Source: a virus
Direction: 5' to 3' (one strand)
DNA: 31,973 bases
Virus record (IMG/VR): IMGVR_UViG_3300033553_000367
Location: 1-31,973 of that record
A program made the position numbers and the translations under genes. Below, piece after piece: positions 1-30,422 of the stretch (position 1 is the stretch's first letter; every line of letters starts with the position of its first letter). The notes under the pieces are model-generated. The model searched no databases, was not told the DNA's origin, and saw nothing but the letters and a program-made list of their open reading frames with translations.

Positions 1-2774
1 CCTACAACCGGAACCACAGAACCTATCATTGCGCCCGCCGCTCCACCTATAGCACCGTAGTCGGCCGCTTTCGTATCAGCTCCCAAAAGCTTATCCCCGA
101 TAGACCCCATAGCATAACCGCCTATTCCCCCCGCGATTCCTGCCGTAGCTAATCCACCCGCATACGCCGCACCGCTTAGACCGGATACGCCTCCGCCTGC
201 GAGGACGTTTGCACCACCCGCGAGAAAAGAACCCGTTCCCGTTAAACCCGCACCGTATGCCATACCTGCCATTTGACCCATCATCGCTGATGGGGCATAC
301 AACGCAGCAGTCAAGCCCCCTGTTAAAAGAGAATAAGCCGTATTTGCGGTGGAAGCTATGTTCAACGCATCCATTACAGAAGAATAATCACTCCCTTGAA
401 GAGTCACTTGACCACCCGCATCCATAACGGTACCGCCTGCGGTGGTCGTAAACCCTGCCGAATCAGTTGTCGCACCGATCAATGCCGCAGGAGTAGCGGC
501 AGACCCGAATACCGATCCAAGCCCTCCAAATGTTTTGAAAATGTTTTGAATCCCGCCTGCTCCGGTATCGATCATAGCGTCCGCGAGAGATTTTGAGAGA
601 CCGCGTGCGAGTGAGTTCGTCATCGCTCCCCAAAAGTCTTTTAACCACGATCCGAATGACTCGAACTTTCCGGTCATAGCATTGAAGAACTGATCATCCA
701 TCGCTTTATTGATGTTACCCATCAGGTCAAACCAAAACTTGTTTTGTTCCTCAAATGTTTTTTGGGCTAGATCCGCTTGCTCTTTTGCACGTTTTTCATC
801 GATGGATAGGATCGATGCCGAAACATAACGCTCGATATCGACAATGTCATTCCCCGCAGCGGCAAACTCTGCGGCACGGTTCGAGATATTTACTATCTCG
901 TTGTCATACCAGTTACCCGAAGCGTCATTGATGGCGGAATATAGATTTTGCGCTGATTCGATCTGTTTTGCGTATTGCTCACGTGTTTTCTCATCTGCTT
1001 TAGCAAAATTATCTTCAGTAAGTTTCCGTGATTCATTCATCATGGCCCCGAGCTCTTTAAGCTCTTTTCGATTCAATGCTGATTTTGCATCGGATACATA
1101 TTGAGCAACCTCGAGTTCAGGCATCTTTTGATCACGCCATATTTTTGCTTTATTATCAATTGCTCTTAAAGCTTTATCATGATCCGATTCATTTAAAGAG
1201 AATATTTCATCATTCAACGATTTAAAATTGCTTGCATACTCTTTAGCCGCTTTTGCTGCAGCTTTTAACTCTTTTTCGCTCAGAGGTGTTGAGGAAGAAT
1301 GACGTCCTCCTGCAGAAGGTGCGTTGGCTTCATCTTGGAAAGCTTGCAGAGCTTTACCATATGTTTTTAACTCATTTTCCAATTGAACACGTCTATTTAG
1401 GTCAATCCTTTCATTACCGAACAATGACTTACCAATAGATGGGTTATTAATACTGTCATTAACTGCCCCAAGCTGCATAGTTGCATACGTTATCTTTGCT
1501 TTGATCGCTTTTTCACTAAGATTTGATACGTCTATGGCTGTCCGTTTTACTGAATCTCTAAGCTCATCCGCTTGATTTTTAAGAACTAAACCAACCCCTA
1601 TGATAGCTGCTCCTGCTATTGCGTATGGGTTTATAGCGACGAGCTTATTCCATCCGGATAACGCTACATTTGCGGCCATTTGTCTAGCGGTTAATGTAGT
1701 TACTGAAGTTGTAGTAGTATTAGTTGCAATGCTATATGATGTTGTAGCTACAGTTGATGCAGCCAAATATGCGGCATATATACTTTGATCCCCTGATAGT
1801 GCAATAGTACCTGCCTTCCATATCAATATCGCGGCTATTGCTTCTCCGACATATCCGGCATAGGTACCAATGTTCCCGCTATGTTCCGAAAGAAGACTAC
1901 TGAGATCGGTAATATTATTCGCAATAGAGCTTGTTACACCGTGCATTTTGTCAAATTCGCTGATAGATAGCCCCATCTGATTTTGTAGCACTACTAGAGA
2001 TTGCGCTACTGTTTTTGGCATCTGATCGAACTCTTTTTCGATCGCATTTTTTTGAGTTCGGATTGCCTCATAGACTTTTTCAGCGGTAAGCTTACCATCC
2101 GCCCCCATCTCTTTGAGTTTACCAACACTGACACCCATACCGTCTGCAATAGCTTCGGCGAGGCGCGGTGCTTGTTCTAACACTGAGTTAAGCTCTTCAC
2201 CCCGCAATGTCCCTGATGCAAACCCTTGACCTAACTGTATGACTGCCGCTTTTGCACTCTCTGATGCGGCACCCGAAACGATAAATGATTTACTTATTGC
2301 CTCAGTAACATCGAGGTTCTCATATTGAGTTTTATTTAGATCTTGCGTAGCACGTGCGATACGAGCATAAAGATCAGCATTTTGTTCATATCCGGTACGG
2401 CTCTCTTGAGAAATGTCGAAAAGGCTACCTTGTACTGATGCGAGTTGTCTACTGGAATCTGTTACAAGGCGTAAACGTCCCTCTAACAGGTTCCATGTAT
2501 CTGCTTGATGAATAGCTGATTTCGCCATATCAGACATAAACGAAAACCCGGCAACAACAGCTTGAAACCCGACATAGGCATGACCCATAAATCCAATGCG
2601 TTCAGAGAGTGTATCGACAGATTGAGCCGCATCGTGATTAGTTTTAGAAATTGCACGTTGAGAAGCTGCCGTACGAAGCGACTCTCGCTCTAATTCAGCG
2701 AAGCTTCGCTTAATATTATCTATTCCTTTAGAGTCAGCAGTGGTACTAAGTTTTATTCTAAGTTCTTTTTCCAT
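1..2774 (-). CDS. Phage tail tape measure protein (partial)
   Basis: The frame is open from an ATG at 2774, preceded by AGGAGG, to the window edge, giving at least 924 codons; the C-terminus lies outside. The N-terminal ~200 residues match the conserved tape-measure N-terminal domain, with blocks such as GSLFDISQESRTGYEQNADLYARI and LNSVLEQAPRLAEAIADGMG. The centre is charged and coiled-coil-like (about residues 480-680). The end is Gly/Ala-rich and hydrophobic, typical of tape measure proteins. It sets tail length and is packed inside the tail tube. It lies downstream of the G/G-T chaperone genes, exactly as lambda gene H does. The family is clear; the full length cannot be judged here. Confidence 0.93.
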   Translation of the reverse strand, partial: MEKELRIKLSTTADSKGIDNIKRSFAELERESLRTAASQRAISKTNHDAAQSVDTLSERIGFMGHAYVGFQAVVAGFSFMSDMAKSAIHQADTWNLLEGRLRLVTDSSRQLASVQGSLFDISQESRTGYEQNADLYARIARATQDLNKTQYENLDVTEAISKSFIVSGAASESAKAAVIQLGQGFASGTLRGEELNSVLEQAPRLAEAIADGMGVSVGKLKEMGADGKLTAEKVYEAIRTQKNAIEKEFDQMPKTVAQSLVVLQNQMGLSISEFDKMHGVTSSIANNITDLSSLLSEHSGNIGTYAGYVGEAIAAILIWKAGTIALSGDQSIYAAYLAASTVATTSYSIATNTTTTSVTTLTARQMAANVALSGWNKLVAINPYAIAGAAIIGVGLVLKNQADELRDSVKRTAIDVSNLSEKAIKAKITYATMQLGAVNDSINNPSIGKSLFGNERIDLNRRVQLENELKTYGKALQAFQDEANAPSAGGRHSSSTPLSEKELKAAAKAAKEYASNFKSLNDEIFSLNESDHDKALRAIDNKAKIWRDQKMPELEVAQYVSDAKSALNRKELKELGAMMNESRKLTEDNFAKADEKTREQYAKQIESAQNLYSAINDASGNWYDNEIVNISNRAAEFAAAGNDIVDIERYVSASILSIDEKRAKEQADLAQKTFEEQNKFWFDLMGNINKAMDDQFFNAMTGKFESFGSWLKDFWGAMTNSLARGLSKSLADAMIDTGAGGIQNIFKTFGGLGSVFGSAATPAALIGATTDSAGFTTTAGGTVMDAGGQVTLQGSDYSSVMDALNIASTANTAYSLLTGGLTAALYAPSAMMGQMAGMAYGAGLTGTGSFLAGGANVLAGGGVSGLSGAAYAGGLATAGIAGGIGGYAMGSIGDKLLGADTKAADYGAIGGAAGAMIGSVVPVV

Positions 2775-2870: not shown

Positions 2871-3152
2871 CTATTTATCCGCTAACTCTAAAACCATCAT
2901 CTTCATCATTCGAAACAATTCGATTGAATCTGTTTTATGCTTTTTGGCAAAATCACTTACAACCGCATAATCAGAATATGGACCTTCCATTGATCTACTT
3001 AGCGATAAGTGAAAGCAATCTGTGATAACACGCTCTTCCTCATCAATAGGGATAAAGATTGCATCTTCATCAAGTCGATCTAATTTATCGGATAGATGCA
3101 TGAAGCTTTGCCCCTTTGAATATTCAGAGGCAAAACGCTTCAGCCGTTTTAC
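2871..3152 (-). CDS. Tail chaperone T domain, made as a G-T frameshift fusion
   Basis: This reading frame has no stop from the slippery heptamer at 3152-3158 to its TAA at 2871. A -1 shift therefore adds 93 residues to the 145-residue G protein, giving about 238 residues. The only internal start is an ATG at 3101 (76 residues), with AAGGGG nine bases upstream, so some independent translation cannot be excluded. It carries a short basic stretch (VKRLKRF) and then an acidic, helical region. It sits directly before the tape measure gene, the place of lambda T. In lambda, G-T binds the tape measure protein during tail assembly. Its role here is inferred from position and the shift site. Confidence 0.75.
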   Translation of the reverse strand, partial: VKRLKRFASEYSKGQSFMHLSDKLDRLDEDAIFIPIDEEERVITDCFHLSLSRSMEGPYSDYAVVSDFAKKHKTDSIELFRMMKMMVLELADK

Positions 3153-3586
3153 TTTCCCTTTTTAGCCTCTTTTTCGATGTAATTCATCGCTTCATAATAA
3201 TTGATGTTATGCTCATCGATATAGTCACGCAAACGCTCTTTATCAGTTCCCGTAACCATCATTAAAAAACGTGAACGATATACTTCACTCAACATATCTT
3301 CAAGCTCTTTTTGATCCTGTGTGCCAATTTTGGATTCAAGAGATTCAATCTCATCTAAAAGCGCTAAAGCTTCTTTTGTTTGACCGTCTGCTTTTAAAAG
3401 CTGATAGCGTTCAATCTTATTATTTAGCTTCTTTCCGTCGGCGGCCTTAGCTTTGGAAAGTGATTCAAAATCACCGTTTTTTTCAATCAACGTAGCTTGC
3501 TGCTCTTTTGTAAGATTTGACACAGTTACATTGAAACTTTTATCATCGATTTGAATATCTACGTCTACTCTTGATTTTAGTGCCAT
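3149..3586 (-). CDS. Tail assembly chaperone, gpG-like
   Basis: The product has 145 residues, starting at ATG 3586 with AAAGG seven bases upstream. The N-terminal ~30 residues (VDVDIQIDDKSFNVTVSNLT) look like the beta-rich start of phage tail chaperones. The rest is helical and strongly charged. Length is close to lambda gpG (140). It lies between the tail tube and tape measure genes and ends on a GGGAAAG slippery site, which is the strongest evidence for the role. It would coat the tape measure protein during tail assembly and be absent from the virion. Confidence 0.8.
   Translation of the reverse strand: MALKSRVDVDIQIDDKSFNVTVSNLTKEQQATLIEKNGDFESLSKAKAADGKKLNNKIERYQLLKADGQTKEALALLDEIESLESKIGTQDQKELEDMLSEVYRSRFLMMVTGTDKERLRDYIDEHNINYYEAMNYIEKEAKKGK
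3152..3158 (-). promoter_or_regulatory. Programmed -1 ribosomal frameshift site GGGAAAG
   Basis: On the minus strand the G gene ends AAG GGA AAG TAA. G-GGA-AAG is an X-XXY-YYZ heptamer in the correct phase, identical to the lambda G/G-T slippery sequence, and the G stop follows it directly. After slipping, the frame runs GTA AAA CGG straight into the 76-residue downstream ORF. One base past the heptamer, AAAACG and CGTTTT can form a 6-bp stem (3132-3150). AGAGGC and GCCTCT can pair around the whole site. Confidence 0.85.
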
Positions 3587-3606: not shown

Positions 3607-3620
3607 TTTCCCGAGGGAAA
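3607..3620. repeat. parS-like palindrome, copy 1 (TTTCCC-GA-GGGAAA)
   Basis: Six-base arms around a 2-base centre, in the gap upstream of the gpG-like gene. The flanks extend the match (ATTTTCCCGAGGGAAATT). It has the same core as the sites at 9271, 17682, 22540 and 23988. It is proposed as a binding site of the prophage ParB, by inference from motif form and recurrence. Confidence 0.55.
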
Positions 3621-3682: not shown

Positions 3683-4597
3683 TCATTTATAAGTGATCGT
3701 GTAGTTATCGTTTCCGGCTGATGCCTGAGCTCGGAAAGTACGGGAAATTTTCACGTTTCCTGAGTCATCATTTTCAGACACGTCCTTGAGCATCGCATTT
3801 GGGATACTCAATTCGATCATAGATCCCAACGCTCCAACTTGGATGACTATGGCTCGAACAGTACCGCTCGCATAATCAATCCAAGCCTGCTCATCGGTAC
3901 CTTTTTCTTTAACTGCAGTGATAGTGATTGTAGGATCGAAATCTACTAAGTAATACTTAGATAAATCCATCGCATATAGCTCTTTAATCTCATTCCCCAT
4001 ATCAAAATCGAAGCTATCCGCATTGAGCTGAGTACCGCCCACAGTCAATACGGTAACCTTTGTTACCAGTGGAGCCATATTCTCATCAAGCGTAACGGTG
4101 GGGTTGACTTCAGCTGTTGCTTGCGCAGAGGCCATAAACCCTTTGACTGATGCCGTAGCAGATAAAGGCTCACCTACTTTACCGCTGATTTTAATATTTC
4201 CATAAACACCCGTAAGTGCTCGTACATACCCATCGGTATAGACTTTAATCTGTCCAGTACCTTCATCTGATCCACCAGGTTTGTATTCCACTTTTGTTGC
4301 GGCTGTGATCGTTTCAGCTAACCCGCAGATTTTGAGAAGCTTACTAATACTTGGCGCGGTACCTAGCGCAGATGCTTTTTTCATTTGCACGGGGATATCA
4401 AACTCTGAATTAACCCAGTTTGGATCGATAAAGGTTTTTGTAGCCCCCATCATCCCGTTACCATTGTCTTTATACTCGCCTGATTTAACTTTTGCATTTA
4501 CAAATACAACACCGGTCGTAGTAACCACATCTGCTGCGGATGGCACACTACCAAAACCAACAAGAGTGACATTTTTAAGCGTCTTTTGAGTCGCCAT
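3683..4597 (-). CDS. Major tail tube protein
   Basis: The product has 304 residues and begins MATQKTLKNVTLVGFG. It is beta-rich with many Thr, Val and Gly residues, and has a typical tail-tube stretch (ITISGKVGEP-like turns near residues 130-150 and VTVLTVGGTQLNADSFDFDMGNEI near 180-205). It would form the hexameric rings of the tail tube. Position between a gpU-like gene and the gpG-like gene equals lambda V. It overlaps the upstream 57-residue gene by 23 bases, suggesting translational coupling. The exact tail-tube family is not certain. Confidence 0.75.
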   Translation of the reverse strand: MATQKTLKNVTLVGFGSVPSAADVVTTTGVVFVNAKVKSGEYKDNGNGMMGATKTFIDPNWVNSEFDIPVQMKKASALGTAPSISKLLKICGLAETITAATKVEYKPGGSDEGTGQIKVYTDGYVRALTGVYGNIKISGKVGEPLSATASVKGFMASAQATAEVNPTVTLDENMAPLVTKVTVLTVGGTQLNADSFDFDMGNEIKELYAMDLSKYYLVDFDPTITITAVKEKGTDEQAWIDYASGTVRAIVIQVGALGSMIELSIPNAMLKDVSENDDSGNVKISRTFRAQASAGNDNYTITYK

Positions 4598-7918: not shown

Positions 7919-9311
7919 TCGCTTCCTCCTTTGTTAAAATTCCCGCTTTTTTTAGCATCTTATTCTCTTTGACACGATCAGCGATTACATCTTCCAAATC
8001 CTTACCTCGTGCAGCGGCAACTTCGGAGATGGTGGTGATACCCATGTCGATTTCTTTTTGGATTGCATTGATGTCTTTGAGCGGGTCAACCCATTCACGA
8101 GCGGGTGCCACCCAGCGAGGCTGACAAAAATCAGATTTATTTAGGAAATAAGCACTTACACCCAATCCTTTTATATTCCCAGCCATGACGTTAGCATCGA
8201 GCCATGATTCGAATAATGGGTTAAGCACATACGTCACCATGTGCCACTGCTCATTATTGAACCGTTTATGATCTTGAATAAATGAAGCACGTGCACTGGA
8301 AAAATTGACCTGAGAATAATCACGAAAAGCGAGCTCATAACTTACTTTACGAGCAACGGCAATGAGACGAACACACGATCGAACAAACTCTCCGTATTCA
8401 GTCCCTTTGATCGTTGGGTCAAATTGGTGCATTTTTTCACCACTATTTAGGTAGTGAACCATTACACCATTGATATCATAGATAGGGTCTGGGGTTTGAC
8501 TATCATTTTTAAGCAACCCACTAATATGCCCTTGCACATTTGGTGTTTCTACAGCATAAGCAACACTAGCGCGTGCTCGTGCAGATTTTAGTGTGGAGGT
8601 CTGATACCCTGCGAAGTTACGAAGATCAACAATCGCCTGTTTATATTCAGACAATCCGCGATACTGAGTCGCACGGTTGTCCATACGAAAATAGTGTATT
8701 ACTTGGTCGGATGGGACTTTTACTGAGCTCATAAGCCCATCGCGGAAAACATAGTTTTGTGGAGCACCTAGTGTATCGAGTTCGATACCATCGACACTGC
8801 TTAGAACATTCGAGTTGTCAACACGAACTTTATAGGACACATCAAATCTATCGGCTTCGATAAGCTGAACTTGAAAAGGATTGCTCTTTTTGCCTGAAAG
8901 GTGCTTTTTGATAACTATTTCACCGTCACACATGCGCTGGGATAAAATAAGTGACTGCATATCACCAAAATGCTGACGGCGAGTAACATCACAGTTCTCA
9001 GGCTTGATAAACTTATCCCATAACGATTCAATTTGTTTGTCGATATTTGGTTTCCCCGTTTTTGACTGGAAAGTAAATCCATTCCCTATGCTATTGCGGA
9101 CGATAGTGCCGTCGATATTCGCCATGATCGCATTATTTTCATGGAGCCAACGTGCCCGAGCACGCATCGTGTCACGATCAGGGGATGCAGTGCTCTCAAA
9201 ATCGCTGTTAGCATTATAAAAATCTTGATTGTTCCCAGTACGTTTACCGCCCTCATAAAATCCGCGATTAATTTTCCCTCGGGAAAATGGATTTTTAAGA
9301 AAACTGAACAT
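7911..9311 (-). CDS. Phage portal protein, lambda family
   Basis: The product has 466 residues with family blocks: RARWLHENNAIMANIDGTIVRNSIGNG near residue 55, QLIEADRFD near 140, GLSEYKQAIVDLRNFAGYQ near 220, and RDYSQVNFSSARASFIQDHKRF near 330. It forms the dodecameric DNA channel at one capsid vertex and binds terminase and gpW. Length is shorter than lambda gpB (533) but usual for this family. The N-terminal codons contain one of the parS-like palindromes (NPFSRGKI). Confidence 0.93.
   Translation of the reverse strand: MFSFLKNPFSRGKINRGFYEGGKRTGNNQDFYNANSDFESTASPDRDTMRARARWLHENNAIMANIDGTIVRNSIGNGFTFQSKTGKPNIDKQIESLWDKFIKPENCDVTRRQHFGDMQSLILSQRMCDGEIVIKKHLSGKKSNPFQVQLIEADRFDVSYKVRVDNSNVLSSVDGIELDTLGAPQNYVFRDGLMSSVKVPSDQVIHYFRMDNRATQYRGLSEYKQAIVDLRNFAGYQTSTLKSARARASVAYAVETPNVQGHISGLLKNDSQTPDPIYDINGVMVHYLNSGEKMHQFDPTIKGTEYGEFVRSCVRLIAVARKVSYELAFRDYSQVNFSSARASFIQDHKRFNNEQWHMVTYVLNPLFESWLDANVMAGNIKGLGVSAYFLNKSDFCQPRWVAPAREWVDPLKDINAIQKEIDMGITTISEVAAARGKDLEDVIADRVKENKMLKKAGILTKEEANA
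9271..9288. repeat. parS-like palindrome, copy 2 (ATTTTCCCTCGGGAAAAT)
   Basis: Perfect 8-base arms around a TC centre, inside the N-terminal coding part of the portal gene. Read on the minus strand it is the same GA-centred variant as copy 1. Candidate ParB site. Confidence 0.55.
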
Positions 9312-17681: not shown

Positions 17682-17699
17682 ATTTTCCCGCGGGAAAAT
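17682..17699. repeat. parS-like palindrome, copy 3 (ATTTTCCCGCGGGAAAAT)
   Basis: A perfect 18-bp palindrome, intergenic, starting directly after the TAG/TAA region of the glycine-zipper gene. Best copy of the set. Candidate ParB site. It might also act as a short hairpin. Confidence 0.7.
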
Positions 17700-19286: not shown

Positions 19287-20069
19287 TTATAATTTATCAA
19301 AATGCCCTACTACACGCCCGATGATCTTACATCCATCAAGGTCATCACCCTTGATGATAATATCATCTACCTCTTTATTATCGCTGATCAACTTCATCTC
19401 TTTAGTGATCGGATTTCGATATACACGTTTTACAAAAACGGAGTCAGTACAGATTATTACATAAATAGCACCATCTTTTGTCCGACAGTTCTCATTCTCG
19501 TATGGGTTAACCATCAGTAGCTCACCTGGTACGATAGTCGGTTCCATACTGTTTCCGGTAGCACTTATCAGATGAATACCATTAAATCGATCTACCCTCA
19601 AAAAGTCTTTTAAAAATGATGCAGAAAATTTAATCACAGTATCATCAATTTCATTTGGGATGATCGCCCCTCCACCTGCAGATGCAACAACATCGTGCAG
19701 ATAGGGGATATCAATCATATCATCCTGATCTAGTGCCGCATAAGCATGCTCTTTTTGTGTTGTATCACCCGGCACGGTATTATTTGATCCGTTGATTTGA
19801 TTATTGCTATTTCCGGTAATAGACTGGCTAATAGACCCATGTTCAATAAACATTGACCCTTTTCCGGTGTAAATCCAATCCTTTGAAACATTAAACTGTT
19901 TATTCAGTGTCTCAATATAACCCAGCGGCATTTTCTTTACTGTACCCTGCTCATACGTTTGTAAAGTTCTCCAAGATACCCCAATATGCGGGGCAAAAAC
20001 TCTTTGATCACTATATCCAAGAGCTTTTCGAGCTGCAATTAATCGTTCTGCTATTTCACTATTGAACAT
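19287..20069 (-). CDS. CI/LexA-type prophage repressor (HTH plus S24 peptidase)
   Basis: The product has 260 residues. Residues ~6-65 are an XRE-type HTH (AERLIAARKALGYSDQRVFAPHIGVSWRTLQTYEQG). Residues ~78-100 are an Asn-rich linker (SQSITGNSNNQINGSNN). Residues ~118-260 are a LexA-like S24 peptidase with cleavage site Ala131-Gly132 (VVASAGGG), Ser174 (TGNSMEPT) and Lys214 (VFVKRVY). RecA-stimulated self-cleavage would trigger induction. GAGGAAAA precedes the ATG. It should bind the ATAAACA-N6-TGTTTAT operators, one of which overlaps its own promoter region. Confidence 0.92.
   Translation of the reverse strand: MFNSEIAERLIAARKALGYSDQRVFAPHIGVSWRTLQTYEQGTVKKMPLGYIETLNKQFNVSKDWIYTGKGSMFIEHGSISQSITGNSNNQINGSNNTVPGDTTQKEHAYAALDQDDMIDIPYLHDVVASAGGGAIIPNEIDDTVIKFSASFLKDFLRVDRFNGIHLISATGNSMEPTIVPGELLMVNPYENENCRTKDGAIYVIICTDSVFVKRVYRNPITKEMKLISDNKEVDDIIIKGDDLDGCKIIGRVVGHFDKL
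19884..19903. promoter_or_regulatory. Operator-like site inside the repressor gene
   Basis: TGAAACA-TTAAAC-TGTTTAT: one perfect arm, one 5/7 arm and correct 6-base spacing. It is in the coding region, so may be a looping or auxiliary site. Confidence 0.4.
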
Positions 20070-22539: not shown

Positions 22540-22553
22540 TTTCCCGCGGGAAA
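22540..22553. repeat. parS-like palindrome, copy 4 (TTTCCCGCGGGAAA)
   Basis: A perfect 14-bp palindrome located 24 bases before the Cys-rich gene and about 190 before parA. A centromere directly beside parAB is the usual plasmid arrangement. Binding here would also allow autoregulation of the operon. Confidence 0.7.
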
Positions 22554-22576: not shown

Positions 22577-22747
22577 ATGGGCGAAGAAATAAAAGATAGT
22601 GTTAAGTGTGACTATAAAGTAGCAAAAAGAGAAGATGGGAAATGTTCCCCATTATGTCTAATGAGTGATAAGTTCTTTTGGAACTCACAACGAAAGATGT
22701 GCCAGATAAAAGATGAATTTCGATACATGCTAAAGGACTCCAAATGA
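22577..22747 (+). CDS. Small Cys-rich protein, first gene of the par operon (56 aa)
   Basis: AAAAAGG lies nine bases upstream of ATG 22577; the frame is open further upstream but that covers the hairpins. Four Cys (C-x13-C-x3-C-x15-C in KCDYKVAKREDGKCSPLC...KMC) suggest a metal site. The stop overlaps the parA start by ATGA, so translation is coupled. No family recognised. Confidence 0.6.
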   Translation: MGEEIKDSVKCDYKVAKREDGKCSPLCLMSDKFFWNSQRKMCQIKDEFRYMLKDSK

Positions 22748-23352
22748 TAATCACCCTCACACACACCAAAGGCGGTGTCGGAAAATCAACTCTCGCGTGG
22801 CATCTAGCTCACAGCTTCAAAAACAAAAAAGTGGCAATCATCGATCTCGACTTTCAGCAAACTCTTCACTACATCAACCTCATGGGCGGTGAGCTGTTAA
22901 AGCTGATCCAGCCTCAAACCTCTGAGGAGCTGATCGAGTTTTTCACTCATTCGGCTTCACAATATGACTTCGTAATCGTCGATGTCGGAGGGTTCGATAG
23001 CGATATCAACCGAACGGCATTACGCTACAGCGATAAAATCCTCATTCCGGTGAGTGATAGTATCACCGAGGTGTTAGGGTTCGTGACGTTTAAAGCGATC
23101 CTATCTCAGATCAGCAGCAGTGCCGATTTTTATATGGTGTTCAACAACGTCCACCCATTGACGAAAAACTTCGACACGCTCCGAGAAGCGATATCCGATA
23201 CAAACATCGTTTTGCTGAATACGGTAATACGTTCCCGCAAGATTTATAAAACGACGATGGGAGATGGTAAAAGTGTATTTGATGAACTCGATGGGTTCCA
23301 AGGTCGTAAAGAGATCATAGGGGTACGTGATGAACTTATCAGCCCTAAATAA
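22744..23352 (+). CDS. parA: ParA-family partition ATPase
   Basis: The product has 202 residues. It has a deviant Walker A KGGVGKST (9-16), IIDLDFQQT (Walker A' region, near 33-41) and YDFVIVDVGG (Walker B, near 74-83). Small, without an N-terminal HTH, so closest to plasmid type Ib ParA proteins. It positions DNA using the nucleoid. It overlaps parB by 23 bases. ParA on a chromosomally integrated prophage is unusual and implies an extrachromosomal stage. Confidence 0.9.
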   Translation: MIITLTHTKGGVGKSTLAWHLAHSFKNKKVAIIDLDFQQTLHYINLMGGELLKLIQPQTSEELIEFFTHSASQYDFVIVDVGGFDSDINRTALRYSDKILIPVSDSITEVLGFVTFKAILSQISSSADFYMVFNNVHPLTKNFDTLREAISDTNIVLLNTVIRSRKIYKTTMGDGKSVFDELDGFQGRKEIIGVRDELISPK

Positions 23353-24127
23353 AGCTACAGCCCAAACCGCCCCACGAACGTCAGGGATCAGTGCGATGAT
23401 GGAGTTGGAGTTAGCACACGTCTACCCCAACCCCGACCAGCCCCGCAAACACTTCGACCCCGTTTCACTCTCAGAGCTTGCCGAATCGATCAAGGCAAAA
23501 GGGTTGATGCAGCCGATAGTCGTCACACGCAAAAGCGACGGGTATATGATCATATCGGGTGAGCGACGGTACCGAGCACATCAGATCAACGCATCGATCA
23601 CCATCCGTGCCATCGTCACCGACCGAGACGATCTATCCATCGACGAAATGGCACTGATCGAGAACATTCAGCGCGACGACTTGACCGATTATGAAATCGC
23701 TATGGCTATCGTGCGGTTATGGGAGAGCGGACAGTACGAACAAAAGACACAACTCGCCCAAGCCATCGCCAAACCGCCCTCGTATGTCTCCAAAGCGTTC
23801 GCGTGTGTAAACCTCGACGATACGATCAAATCGGACATCGAGGATAACAAAAGCGATATCGGGCTATCCGTCCTCCAAGAATTGAGCCGTGTAGATCCTG
23901 ACAAACAGTGTAAGGTCTATGATCGCTACAAAGCCGGAGATATCAAGCGGGATGATTTTAAAGAGGCGGGGAAATCGGAGCCAAAAGTTTCCCGCGGGAA
24001 AATGAAGCATATTTCAACTATTTTTGCTAAAGGCGGAGATTCAGTAGGATCTATCAATTTTGACAAAATCATTTCAGAGTTAGACCCATCTACACAGTAC
24101 AGAATCACCATCGAGGAGATCCTATGA
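23330..24127 (+). CDS. parB: ParB/Spo0J-family partition protein
   Basis: The product has 265 residues from ATG 23330; GTG 23327 is also possible. Conserved blocks: IYPNPDQPRKHFD-like (31-43), GERRYRAH (77-84) and ENIQRDDL (111-118), the CTPase/ParB-N motifs. An HTH follows near 145-168 (TQLAQAIAKPPSYVSKAFACVNL). The C-terminal 40 residues are probably the dimer domain. A parS-like palindrome lies in its own 3' region. It should load at parS, spread and stimulate ParA. Confidence 0.9.
   Translation: MNLSALNKATAQTAPRTSGISAMMELELAHVYPNPDQPRKHFDPVSLSELAESIKAKGLMQPIVVTRKSDGYMIISGERRYRAHQINASITIRAIVTDRDDLSIDEMALIENIQRDDLTDYEIAMAIVRLWESGQYEQKTQLAQAIAKPPSYVSKAFACVNLDDTIKSDIEDNKSDIGLSVLQELSRVDPDKQCKVYDRYKAGDIKRDDFKEAGKSEPKVSRGKMKHISTIFAKGGDSVGSINFDKIISELDPSTQYRITIEEIL
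23988..24001. repeat. parS-like palindrome, copy 5 (TTTCCCGCGGGAAA)
   Basis: A perfect 14-bp palindrome inside parB, coding Val-Ser-Arg-Gly-Lys. Together with copy 4 it brackets the par genes. Confidence 0.7.
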
Positions 24128-25115: not shown

Positions 25116-25593
25116 GGTACACGAATTACGTTTTTCAAGAGAAACAAGCTACAAAGCTGTGATGTTTTCAAAGCATCTAAATAAATATTATGTGACCACC
25201 CCTTGTGCAGTCGATGGCGGTTGCACAAGTTTAGCCAATCTCTTTGGGTTTGAAAATTATGGGGTTGATGTTATGATGGATGATATTTTCACATCAGAAG
25301 ATTTTCTCACTAAGTTCAACTGTGATGATGAAGAATACTTCAAGATGGATTGGGTACATATCGACAATATCCAAAGTATTGGAATTAGAGATAAGAAAGG
25401 TGACGAAATTTACGAGGGCCATATCTTCCAAGATGGTGGTATGGTCGTATATTTTGCCCCTAGATATATCAAGCTCTTCCCTACAAAGGACGAAAACGGT
25501 CTTGATCATTGGGAAGATATTGATGGTGATTGCGATGTTATTGCAGGAAATGTTTTTGAGAATCCTGAGTTATGGGAAGTAGATCATGAGTAA
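25108..25593 (+). CDS. YopX-family phage protein
   Basis: The product has 161 residues. The family hallmark is near residues 91-110: IGIRDKKGDEIYEGHIFQDG, matching the usual 'TGIKDKNGKEIYEGDI'. The end, VIAGNVFENPELW, matches the family's IGNIYENPEL. YopX proteins occur in many phages and genomic islands; function is unknown. Overlaps the methyltransferase start by 8 bases. Confidence 0.85.
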   Translation: MIKVHELRFSRETSYKAVMFSKHLNKYYVTTPCAVDGGCTSLANLFGFENYGVDVMMDDIFTSEDFLTKFNCDDEEYFKMDWVHIDNIQSIGIRDKKGDEIYEGHIFQDGGMVVYFAPRYIKLFPTKDENGLDHWEDIDGDCDVIAGNVFENPELWEVDHE

Positions 25594-27478
25594 ATACCAA
25601 CGCACTATGATCGACATGCTCAATCATTTCGATCCCGAATTCGGACTCATCATCGATCTCTTTGCCGGAGGCGGTGGAGCATCGGAGGGGATACGTGCCG
25701 CACTCGGTCGTGATCCTGATGTTGCGGTCAACCATGACCCCGAAGCGATATCCATGCATACAGTGAATCATCACGATACTATGCACTTCACGGCGGACGT
25801 TTTCGAGGTCGATCCTAAAAGCATTTTCCCTGAATACCCCGTCGGTCTGCTTTGGGCTTCTCCGGCATGTACGCACTTCTCAAAAGCACGCGGATCAAAG
25901 CCGGTATGTAAACAGCTCCGATCACTCGCATGGATTGTAGTCAAATGGGCGAAACTCCGAAAACCTGCGCAAATCTATTTAGAGAATGTCGAGGAGTTTA
26001 CCGATTGGGGTCCCGTACTCGATGACGGTCAACCCTGCCCTATCCGCAAAGGCGAAACATTTACCCGCTTTGTGTCAGAACTTGAAAAGCTCGGTTATGA
26101 CGTAGAGTGGCGCGAAGTCAAAGCGCATGAGTTCGGAGCACCTACAATCCGCAAACGTCTCTTTATGGTGGCGCGATGCGACGGTAAAGAGATAGTATGG
26201 CCGGAACCGACCAACGGTGGTCCTAAAAGCGCGGAAGTAAAAAGCGGTAAACGTAAACCGTTCAGAACCGCAGCGGAGATCATCGACTGGTCTATACCTG
26301 GTAACTCAATATTTATGAGTACCGAAGAGATCAAATCTAAAAAGCTCCGTATCAAACGACCGTTAAAAGATACTTCATTACGACGTATCAGTAAAGGGTT
26401 AAATAAGTTCGTATTTAAAAACCCTGATCCATACACCGTCGATCAATCGTGGATTGTGAAATATTACAAAGGCGTAGTCGGAAGCTCAATTGATGATCCA
26501 TTACCTACCGTAACAACTGCGGATCATAATGCACTATCAACTGCCAAGCTCGCCCCATTCGTCAGCACTTATTTCGGTGAACGAAACGGAGAGGCAGACG
26601 GGAGAGGGGCGACACTGGATAAACCGTTAACGACGATTACTAGCGGTGGGTTGAGACATTCACTTATCTCTCCGGTACTGATCGGAATCGATAACGGAAG
26701 CTCTAAAAGTGCATCATGGTCACCCGAAGCACCATTGACTACTATTGTTACAGAGAACCGTCATGCATTGGTCGAAAATCGTATGGTGCAATTGCCTCAT
26801 ATCGTGCGCGACTTCAAAAGCTCTATCGGAAGTAGTATGAACGATCCTATCGGAACGATCACGACTCAGGGCAACGGTAAAGCCGCACTATGTGTTTCGC
26901 ACGCTGTCAAATTCAGAGGAACCAATTACGGCTACCCGATGAGTGATCCGGTACATACCATCACGGCATCAGGAACACACCAGGGATTAGTCACGAGCTA
27001 TCTCAACTCTTTCTACGGAAATGCTGAGGATATAGGCTCACCGATGGACGATCCATTGCGTACAGTTATGACTAAAGACCGATTTGCGAAAGTGGACATC
27101 GTGTTAGATCCGGTCACGGGTGCGATGTGGGATAGCGAAACGATGGAACGGATCATCGCCGTTCGAGAGTTCATCCAAACCTATTGCGGTGATGACCTGA
27201 GCGACGATGAGTGTATGGGGATAGTAACAATCAAAGGGTTGAAATACCAAATCATCGATATTAGCCTCCGAATGCTCAAACCGCGTGAACTTTACAACGC
27301 GCAGGGTTTCCGCCCGGACTACATCATCGACCGAACCGTAGATAATAAACCGATCACCGGCACAGCTCAGGTGCGAATGGTTGGAAACAGCGTATGCCCT
27401 CCCGCTGCGGAAGCGATCATTCGAGCGAATCAAAACGCACCGTATAAACAAGTACCTATCTTGGACGAAGCGGCGTAA
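25586..27478 (+). CDS. DNA cytosine-5 methyltransferase with internal repeats
   Basis: The product has 630 residues. Motif I IDLFAGGGGASEG (23-35), motif IV SPACTHFSKARG with catalytic Cys95, ENV in YLENVEEF (motif VI, ~131-138), IRKRLFMVAR (motif VIII), and VGNSVCPPAAEAI (motif X, ~597-609). Residues ~300-500 hold six copies of a motif like DDPLPTVTTADHNAL, DKPLTTITSGGLRHS, NDPIGTITTQGNGKA and SDPVHTITASGTHQG. No partner endonuclease is nearby, so it is an orphan enzyme, likely protecting phage DNA or altering regulation. Confidence 0.93.
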   Translation: MSKYQRTMIDMLNHFDPEFGLIIDLFAGGGGASEGIRAALGRDPDVAVNHDPEAISMHTVNHHDTMHFTADVFEVDPKSIFPEYPVGLLWASPACTHFSKARGSKPVCKQLRSLAWIVVKWAKLRKPAQIYLENVEEFTDWGPVLDDGQPCPIRKGETFTRFVSELEKLGYDVEWREVKAHEFGAPTIRKRLFMVARCDGKEIVWPEPTNGGPKSAEVKSGKRKPFRTAAEIIDWSIPGNSIFMSTEEIKSKKLRIKRPLKDTSLRRISKGLNKFVFKNPDPYTVDQSWIVKYYKGVVGSSIDDPLPTVTTADHNALSTAKLAPFVSTYFGERNGEADGRGATLDKPLTTITSGGLRHSLISPVLIGIDNGSSKSASWSPEAPLTTIVTENRHALVENRMVQLPHIVRDFKSSIGSSMNDPIGTITTQGNGKAALCVSHAVKFRGTNYGYPMSDPVHTITASGTHQGLVTSYLNSFYGNAEDIGSPMDDPLRTVMTKDRFAKVDIVLDPVTGAMWDSETMERIIAVREFIQTYCGDDLSDDECMGIVTIKGLKYQIIDISLRMLKPRELYNAQGFRPDYIIDRTVDNKPITGTAQVRMVGNSVCPPAAEAIIRANQNAPYKQVPILDEAA

Positions 27479-29383: not shown

Positions 29384-29598
29384 AACTTGACTTCATTGGT
29401 CATAAGATCAGAGACGAAGATAAACTTTGGATAATCAAAGGCGATCTGTTGAGAATTGAAGCATATCGAGATGGGGACAAAGTCATCCCGATTGATAGGA
29501 ATTATGATTTAGAACAAACCCTACAAGATGGTAAAAATAGCCGTGTTGATTTAAAAAGGTCATGGCTTGAAAACTATATGATGAAGGCTCACGGATGA
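29380..29598 (+). CDS. Hypothetical phage protein (72 aa)
   Basis: GAGGAG upstream of ATG 29380. Beta-rich start (LDFIGHKIRDEDKLWIIKGDLLRIEAYRDGDKVIPID), helical end. It overlaps the adenine methylase start by ATGA, so may be coupled to it. No family recognised. Confidence 0.6.
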   Translation: MKLDFIGHKIRDEDKLWIIKGDLLRIEAYRDGDKVIPIDRNYDLEQTLQDGKNSRVDLKRSWLENYMMKAHG

Positions 29599-30422
29599 AA
29601 CGCCCACTCCTTAGATACTTCGGTGGAAAATTCAGGATAGCGGATTGGGTAGTGTCACACTTCCCGGATCATCTTTATTACGTTGAACCGTTTGGCGGTG
29701 CCGCTTCGGTACTTTTGGCAAAAGGTAGATCCCGAAGCGAAGTATATAACGATATGAACACTGGAGTGGTGAGCCTATTCCAAGTTCTACGAGATCGTGA
29801 GCAATCTAAAAAGCTGATCGACCTTATCGCTTTGACACCATACGCACGTGAGGAGTTTGACCTCTCTTATGACAAAGCAGCCGACCCGATAGAAAATGCA
29901 CGTCGCCTGATCGTTCGATCACACATGGCTTTTTCTACATCCGGCATCGGTAAAAGATCAAAGACCGGGTTTCGTAACGATCACAAAATGAATCCGGCCG
30001 ACGAATGGCACGCTTTTCCATCAGCTCTCAATGAGATAGCAGAACGATTGCGCGGAGTTATTATCGAGAATCGACCAGCTGCTGAGTTGATCGCGAAGAT
30101 GGATGATGTTGAAACGCTGTTTTATCTTGACCCTCCATATCTACCAAGTACGAGAGTAAACGGTGGATACGATTATGAAATGAGTGAAGATGATCATATT
30201 GAACTGCTGGAGCTAATCAGTGGGTTAAAAGGCAAAGTGGTTATCAGCGGATATGACAGCGATTTGTATAACTCATCGCTATTACCGCTAGGATATCAAA
30301 AAAGAACCCGAAGCGCACGCGGCCAACGTGGGGGGGGTGGTGCAAAAATCACCGAAGAGGTTTTATGGATCTCGCCCAATGCTCTGGAGCATGGATTATT
30401 TTGTATGGGAGAAACAGCATGA
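29595..30422 (+). CDS. D12-class N6-adenine DNA methyltransferase (Dam-like)
   Basis: The product has 275 residues. LRYFGGKFRIADWV (about 6-19, SAM-binding motif), VEPFGGAASVLL (about 30-41), FSTSGIGKR in the middle, and the catalytic DPPY at 179-182. Length fits the family. No cognate nuclease is nearby. It may methylate GATC-like sites in phage DNA; the target is not proven. Part of a tightly packed operon with ATGA overlaps on both sides. Confidence 0.92.
   Translation: MKRPLLRYFGGKFRIADWVVSHFPDHLYYVEPFGGAASVLLAKGRSRSEVYNDMNTGVVSLFQVLRDREQSKKLIDLIALTPYAREEFDLSYDKAADPIENARRLIVRSHMAFSTSGIGKRSKTGFRNDHKMNPADEWHAFPSALNEIAERLRGVIIENRPAAELIAKMDDVETLFYLDPPYLPSTRVNGGYDYEMSEDDHIELLELISGLKGKVVISGYDSDLYNSSLLPLGYQKRTRSARGQRGGGGAKITEEVLWISPNALEHGLFCMGETA

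Follow-up and report, generated by a model that had tools for sequence, protein, structure and literature searches.

Organization of the locus

The window, i.e. the whole stretch of DNA that was analysed, comprises the 31973 bases of an IMG/VR virus record. On its minus strand, two small ORFs, here called G and T, are flanked by a tail tube gene (Phage_tube_2) on one side and a tape measure gene (TMP_3) on the other (Table 1). This order of tail tube, G, T and tape measure matches the position of G and T in phage lambda and thereby supports a lambda-like reading of the pair, with products G and a G-T fusion (GT). T was retrieved with 98% identity from a Sulfuricurvum metagenome-assembled genome (MAG; locus L016), which points to Sulfuricurvum as the probable host of the virus.

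Table 1. Coordinates of the predicted G/GT frameshift region and its flanking genes in the window.
Feature	Position	Strand	Remarks
G-like tail assembly chaperone ORF, 145 aa	3149–3586	-	between tail tube and tape measure genes; without Pfam or PHROG family
Slippery heptamer G_GGA_AAG	3152–3158	-	next to G stop TAA (3149–3151); equivalents in all relatives examined
T-like domain, -1 frame, 95 codons, C-terminal part of predicted GT fusion	2871–3158	-	protein-level homology to slip site; AlphaFold model
76-aa ORF, as a gene caller would report it	2871–3101	-	ATG not conserved, base-paired in predicted stem
Predicted stimulatory stem-loop, 7-nt spacer after heptamer, -22 kcal/mol	3098–3144	-	folding prediction
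Tail tube protein (Phage_tube_2, 2.7e-9), upstream neighbour	3683–4597	-	
Tape measure protein (TMP_3, 6.2e-62), downstream neighbour, runs off contig	3–2774	-	

Slippery heptamer and open frames

The heptamer GGGAAAG closes the 145-aa ORF, its last codon directly abutting the TAA stop. The end of G reads AAA AAG GGA AAG TAA in the 0 frame and AAA GGG AAA GTA AAA CGG in the -1 frame, which confirms the phase assigned in an earlier reading of the letters alone (the sequence-only reading). The same reading had called the heptamer identical to that of lambda, and the lambda G/T site is indeed GGGAAAG in the same phase. It had further described the -1 frame as open for 93 codons; the long open frame is present, the count is not, as 95 open codons extend from GGG to the TAG at 2871–2873, 91 of them past the G stop. 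On its way the -1 frame passes through the 76-aa ORF. A -1-frame stop at 3162–3164 lies just upstream of the heptamer, so that in the window any shift must fall within the few bases that contain it.

As a bare string, GGGAAAG is not rare in the window (3 seen, 3.5 expected). For its placement, in-phase X_XXY_YYZ heptamers were counted in all window ORFs of at least 60 aa. Only one of 60, this GGGAAAG, was both no more than 10 codons from the stop and followed by at least 60 further open -1 codons. Of random draws of the codons of this G gene, 1.6% had a strong heptamer among the last 5 codons.

Conservation of the heptamer in relatives

Thirteen loci from six lineages were compared: the window, L003, L016, L013, L017, L006, four Helicobacter prophages (L009, L010, L018, L019), the Nitratiruptor phages NrS-1 and NrS-3 (L007, L008) and RcapMu (L011). 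Identity of T to the window was 96–98% for L003 and L016, 46–49% for L013 and L017, 39% for L006 and 34–38% for the Helicobacter prophages. NrS-1, NrS-3 and RcapMu were reached via the tail tube protein and the gene order, not via T similarity.

A strict in-phase X_XXY_YYZ heptamer was located 0–5 codons before the G stop in all 13 loci. It is GGGAAAG in the window, L003, L016, NrS-1 and NrS-3, GGGAAAC in L013, L017 and RcapMu, AAAAAAG in L006 and AAAAAAC in the four Helicobacter prophages. The check that had been proposed on the window alone, conservation in relatives, therefore came out positive across all six lineages. The outcome named beforehand as speaking against a frameshift, i.e. relatives without the heptamer and with a conserved downstream start codon, was found reversed: the heptamers are kept, and ATG 3101 is lost in distant relatives.

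G and T are entered as separate hypothetical genes in the NrS and Helicobacter prophage records (for example, the gene pairs at L007:4913–5529, L009:2088–2695 and L010:2094–2653). Their heptamers suggest that GT fusions may be made from these Nitratiruptor phage and Helicobacter prophage pairs, too.

Extent of T upstream of ATG 3101

Homology of T extends upstream of ATG 3101 as far as the heptamer (KVKRLKRF), where the window reads KVKRLKRFASEYSKGQSF, L006 KVKRLKRFVKEFKNEASC and L013 KRLIRFAKEYSKEQSY. ATG 3101 is retained in L003 and L016; its position is occupied by Ile in L013 and L017 and by Trp in L006; the Helicobacter set could not be aligned over this region. A T start codon common to the family was not found among the loci compared. 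An AlphaFold model of T (mean pLDDT 85.8) places the first helix at residues 2–14, which are encoded upstream of ATG 3101.

In the stretch that separates the heptamer from ATG 3101, the window and L017 differ at 3, 4 and 12 sites in -1-frame codon positions 1, 2 and 3, respectively, with 8 synonymous and 5 non-synonymous codons. The third-position excess has a binomial P of 0.007 for this pair; other pairs were weaker and are not independent. The reach of T homology to the slip site and the loss of the T start in distant relatives both support the lambda-like G/GT reading.

RNA stem-loop downstream of the heptamer

The 60 nt past the heptamer were predicted to fold with -22 kcal/mol (z -4.55; equalled by 0 of 200 shuffles), which places them in the best 0.3% (37 of 12766) of overlapping 60-nt segments of the window. 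The spacer between heptamer and stem is within the 5–9 nt typical for -1 frameshift signals. A different stem-loop, AAAACG/CGTTTT starting one base after the heptamer, had been suggested by the sequence-only reading; it reaches only -3.8 kcal/mol, compared to -22 kcal/mol for the 3144–3098 stem, and was dropped.

L003 (z -3.7), L016 and 4 of 4 Helicobacter loci (z -3.5 to -6.0) likewise have a stable stem after the heptamer. Folding of L013, L006 and NrS-1 yielded no stem of note, so that the stimulator is not universal. Among the Helicobacter stems no two-sided changes were seen; variation there is too sparse for covariation to speak for or against the stem.

The AUG of the 76-aa ORF and the AAGGGG upstream of it lie in the 3' arm of the window stem. 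Since both would be paired, the predicted fold argues against efficient independent initiation, and translation of T on its own is probably weak.

Translation of T by other routes

In the clade of the window, two products might be made side by side, GT through the frameshift and, from ATG 3101, a shorter T on its own. This AUG and its Shine-Dalgarno-like AAGGGG (AAAGGG in relatives) are conserved within the close clade, but the predicted fold pairs the start region and a free T would be devoid of the first predicted T helix, which renders a second product improbable.

That T is simply an ordinary separate gene for 76 aa, perhaps translated by reinitiation after the G stop, with the heptamer being incidental, is very improbable. 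Such a gene would have AAGGGG 9 nt upstream of its ATG, which persists in L003 and L016, and in L003 a further ATG follows soon after the stop. Against this, the homology begins at the heptamer and not at ATG 3101, L006, L013 and L017 have lost the ATG and no start is common to the family, the ATG and AAGGGG are sequestered in the predicted stem, and an in-phase heptamer occurs in every lineage.

A frame change by slippage of RNA polymerase on an A run, in place of the ribosome, has a negligible probability: despite A7 in L006 and A6 near the site in the Helicobacter set, L003 and L016, polymerase slippage requires longer homopolymer runs than the A5, G3 and A3 of the window, and the GGGAAAC lineages contain no long homopolymer.

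G and T proteins

Searches of G and T against Pfam and PHROG gave no significant match, nor did tblastn with G against the phage collection give any. Viral Foldseek neighbours of T were weak (all E > 0.1), several named tape-measure or tail-assembly chaperones being among them. Matches of T in the PDB (Z no higher than 4.1) were mostly small helical DNA-binding domains and were taken as generic. For G, AlphaFold gave only a poor model (mean pLDDT 66), whose structure matches were not regarded as meaningful.

At the DNA level, a 4-kb stretch that ends at the G start codon is 84% identical between the window and L013; from there to the tape measure gene the two can hardly be aligned. Their T proteins share 52% identity (6e-31). 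Homology of their G proteins was not recognisable (best blastp E 0.42 against the set; hhalign probability 0.9%), and the G proteins of L013 (L013:4003–4317), L017 and L006 are 45–51% alike. The simplest reading is that the G cassette has likely been exchanged, with T and the frameshift being kept; fast divergence of G is a less simple one.

Other features of the window

A dispersed palindrome, TTTCCCGNGGGAAA, occurs five times in the window (3607–3620, 9273–9286, 17684–17697, 22540–22553 and 23988–24001), where 0.06 matches with at most 1 mismatch are expected. Relatives carry six copies (G001), three copies (G002) and two copies (G003), and in the Sulfuricurvum MAG it is present on one contig only. 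One copy is inside a parB-like gene and one shortly before a parA-like gene; because of these locations the palindrome may be a candidate ParB (parS-like) site or a repressor operator. Adjoining ParA-like and ParB-like genes are located at 22744–24127 and an S24 repressor-like gene at 19287–20069. Judged from these genes, a phage-plasmid lifestyle of the virus is possible. Two DNA methyltransferase genes are also present, for a C-5 cytosine enzyme of 630 aa (25586–27478) and a D12 N6-adenine enzyme (29595–30422).

Proposed mechanism

The heptamer, its phase and conservation, the shared -1 frame and the gene order are seen in the sequence itself. Together with the homology of T up to the slip site and the lost T start, the gene order and the in-phase heptamers of six lineages make it highly probable that a -1 programmed frameshift, predicted here, yields G and GT tail assembly chaperones. 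The original proposal that GGGAAAG joins the G and T chaperone frames is supported by these same lines, including the 13 of 13 heptamers.

Ribosomes translating G would meet G_GGA_AAG just before the stop, where most would terminate and release the 145-aa G. A minority, presumably at low frequency and paused by the stem-loop 7 nt downstream, would slip one base back onto GGG AAA; translation would then proceed in the -1 frame and give a G-T fusion of about 240 residues. By analogy with lambda, the task of G would be to coat the tape measure protein and that of the T part to recruit tail tube subunits.

The mechanism is already well known, and the pair described here is a further example. It extends the tail-chaperone frameshift to phages of Sulfuricurvum, Helicobacter and Nitratiruptor, and supplies a putative chaperone family, missed by the searched libraries (Pfam, PHROG), with correct gene models. 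The apparent exchange of G with retention of T could help to map which part of the chaperone matches which tail partner. A broader proposal is tentative and rather doubtful: Campylobacterota phages would share an undescribed tail assembly chaperone family in which G is exchanged as a cassette and T and the frameshift stay in place. A single stem-loop would act twice in this family, by promoting the shift and by masking the internal start, which would leave the fusion as the only form of T.

Comparison with known systems

In lambda, G and GT are produced at a molar ratio of 30:1, which is crucial for tail assembly, and G_GGA_AAG is highly shift-prone in E. coli; other g-t pairs use G_GGA_AAC and A_AAA_AAC (PMC5009743). 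The window shares with lambda the identical G_GGA_AAG heptamer with the same phase and close to the 3' end of G, the -1 direction, the location between the major tail protein and tape measure genes, and a T without a conserved start of its own. It differs in that the heptamer abuts the G stop, whereas it precedes the stop by four codons in lambda, in that the T domain is shorter (95 codons; longer in lambda), in its strong adjacent stem-loop, and in that G and T match no known chaperone family by sequence.

NrS-1 (NRS1_41/42) and NrS-3 (NrS3_57/58) have a tail tube protein about 30% identical to that of the window, the same gene order and an in-phase G_GGA_AAG. Unlike in the window, their heptamer is located five codons before the stop, and each gene of the pair is annotated separately as hypothetical; the paper describing these phages never uses the word "frameshift".

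Genes 49/50 of the Rhodobacter phage RcapMu likewise follow a related tail tube gene in the same order and contain G_GGA_AAC TGA. RcapMu differs in its alphaproteobacterial host and in its T, which matches DUF1799, whereas the T of the window does not. The RcapMu record as deposited already marks this gene position with 'potential -1 frameshift'.
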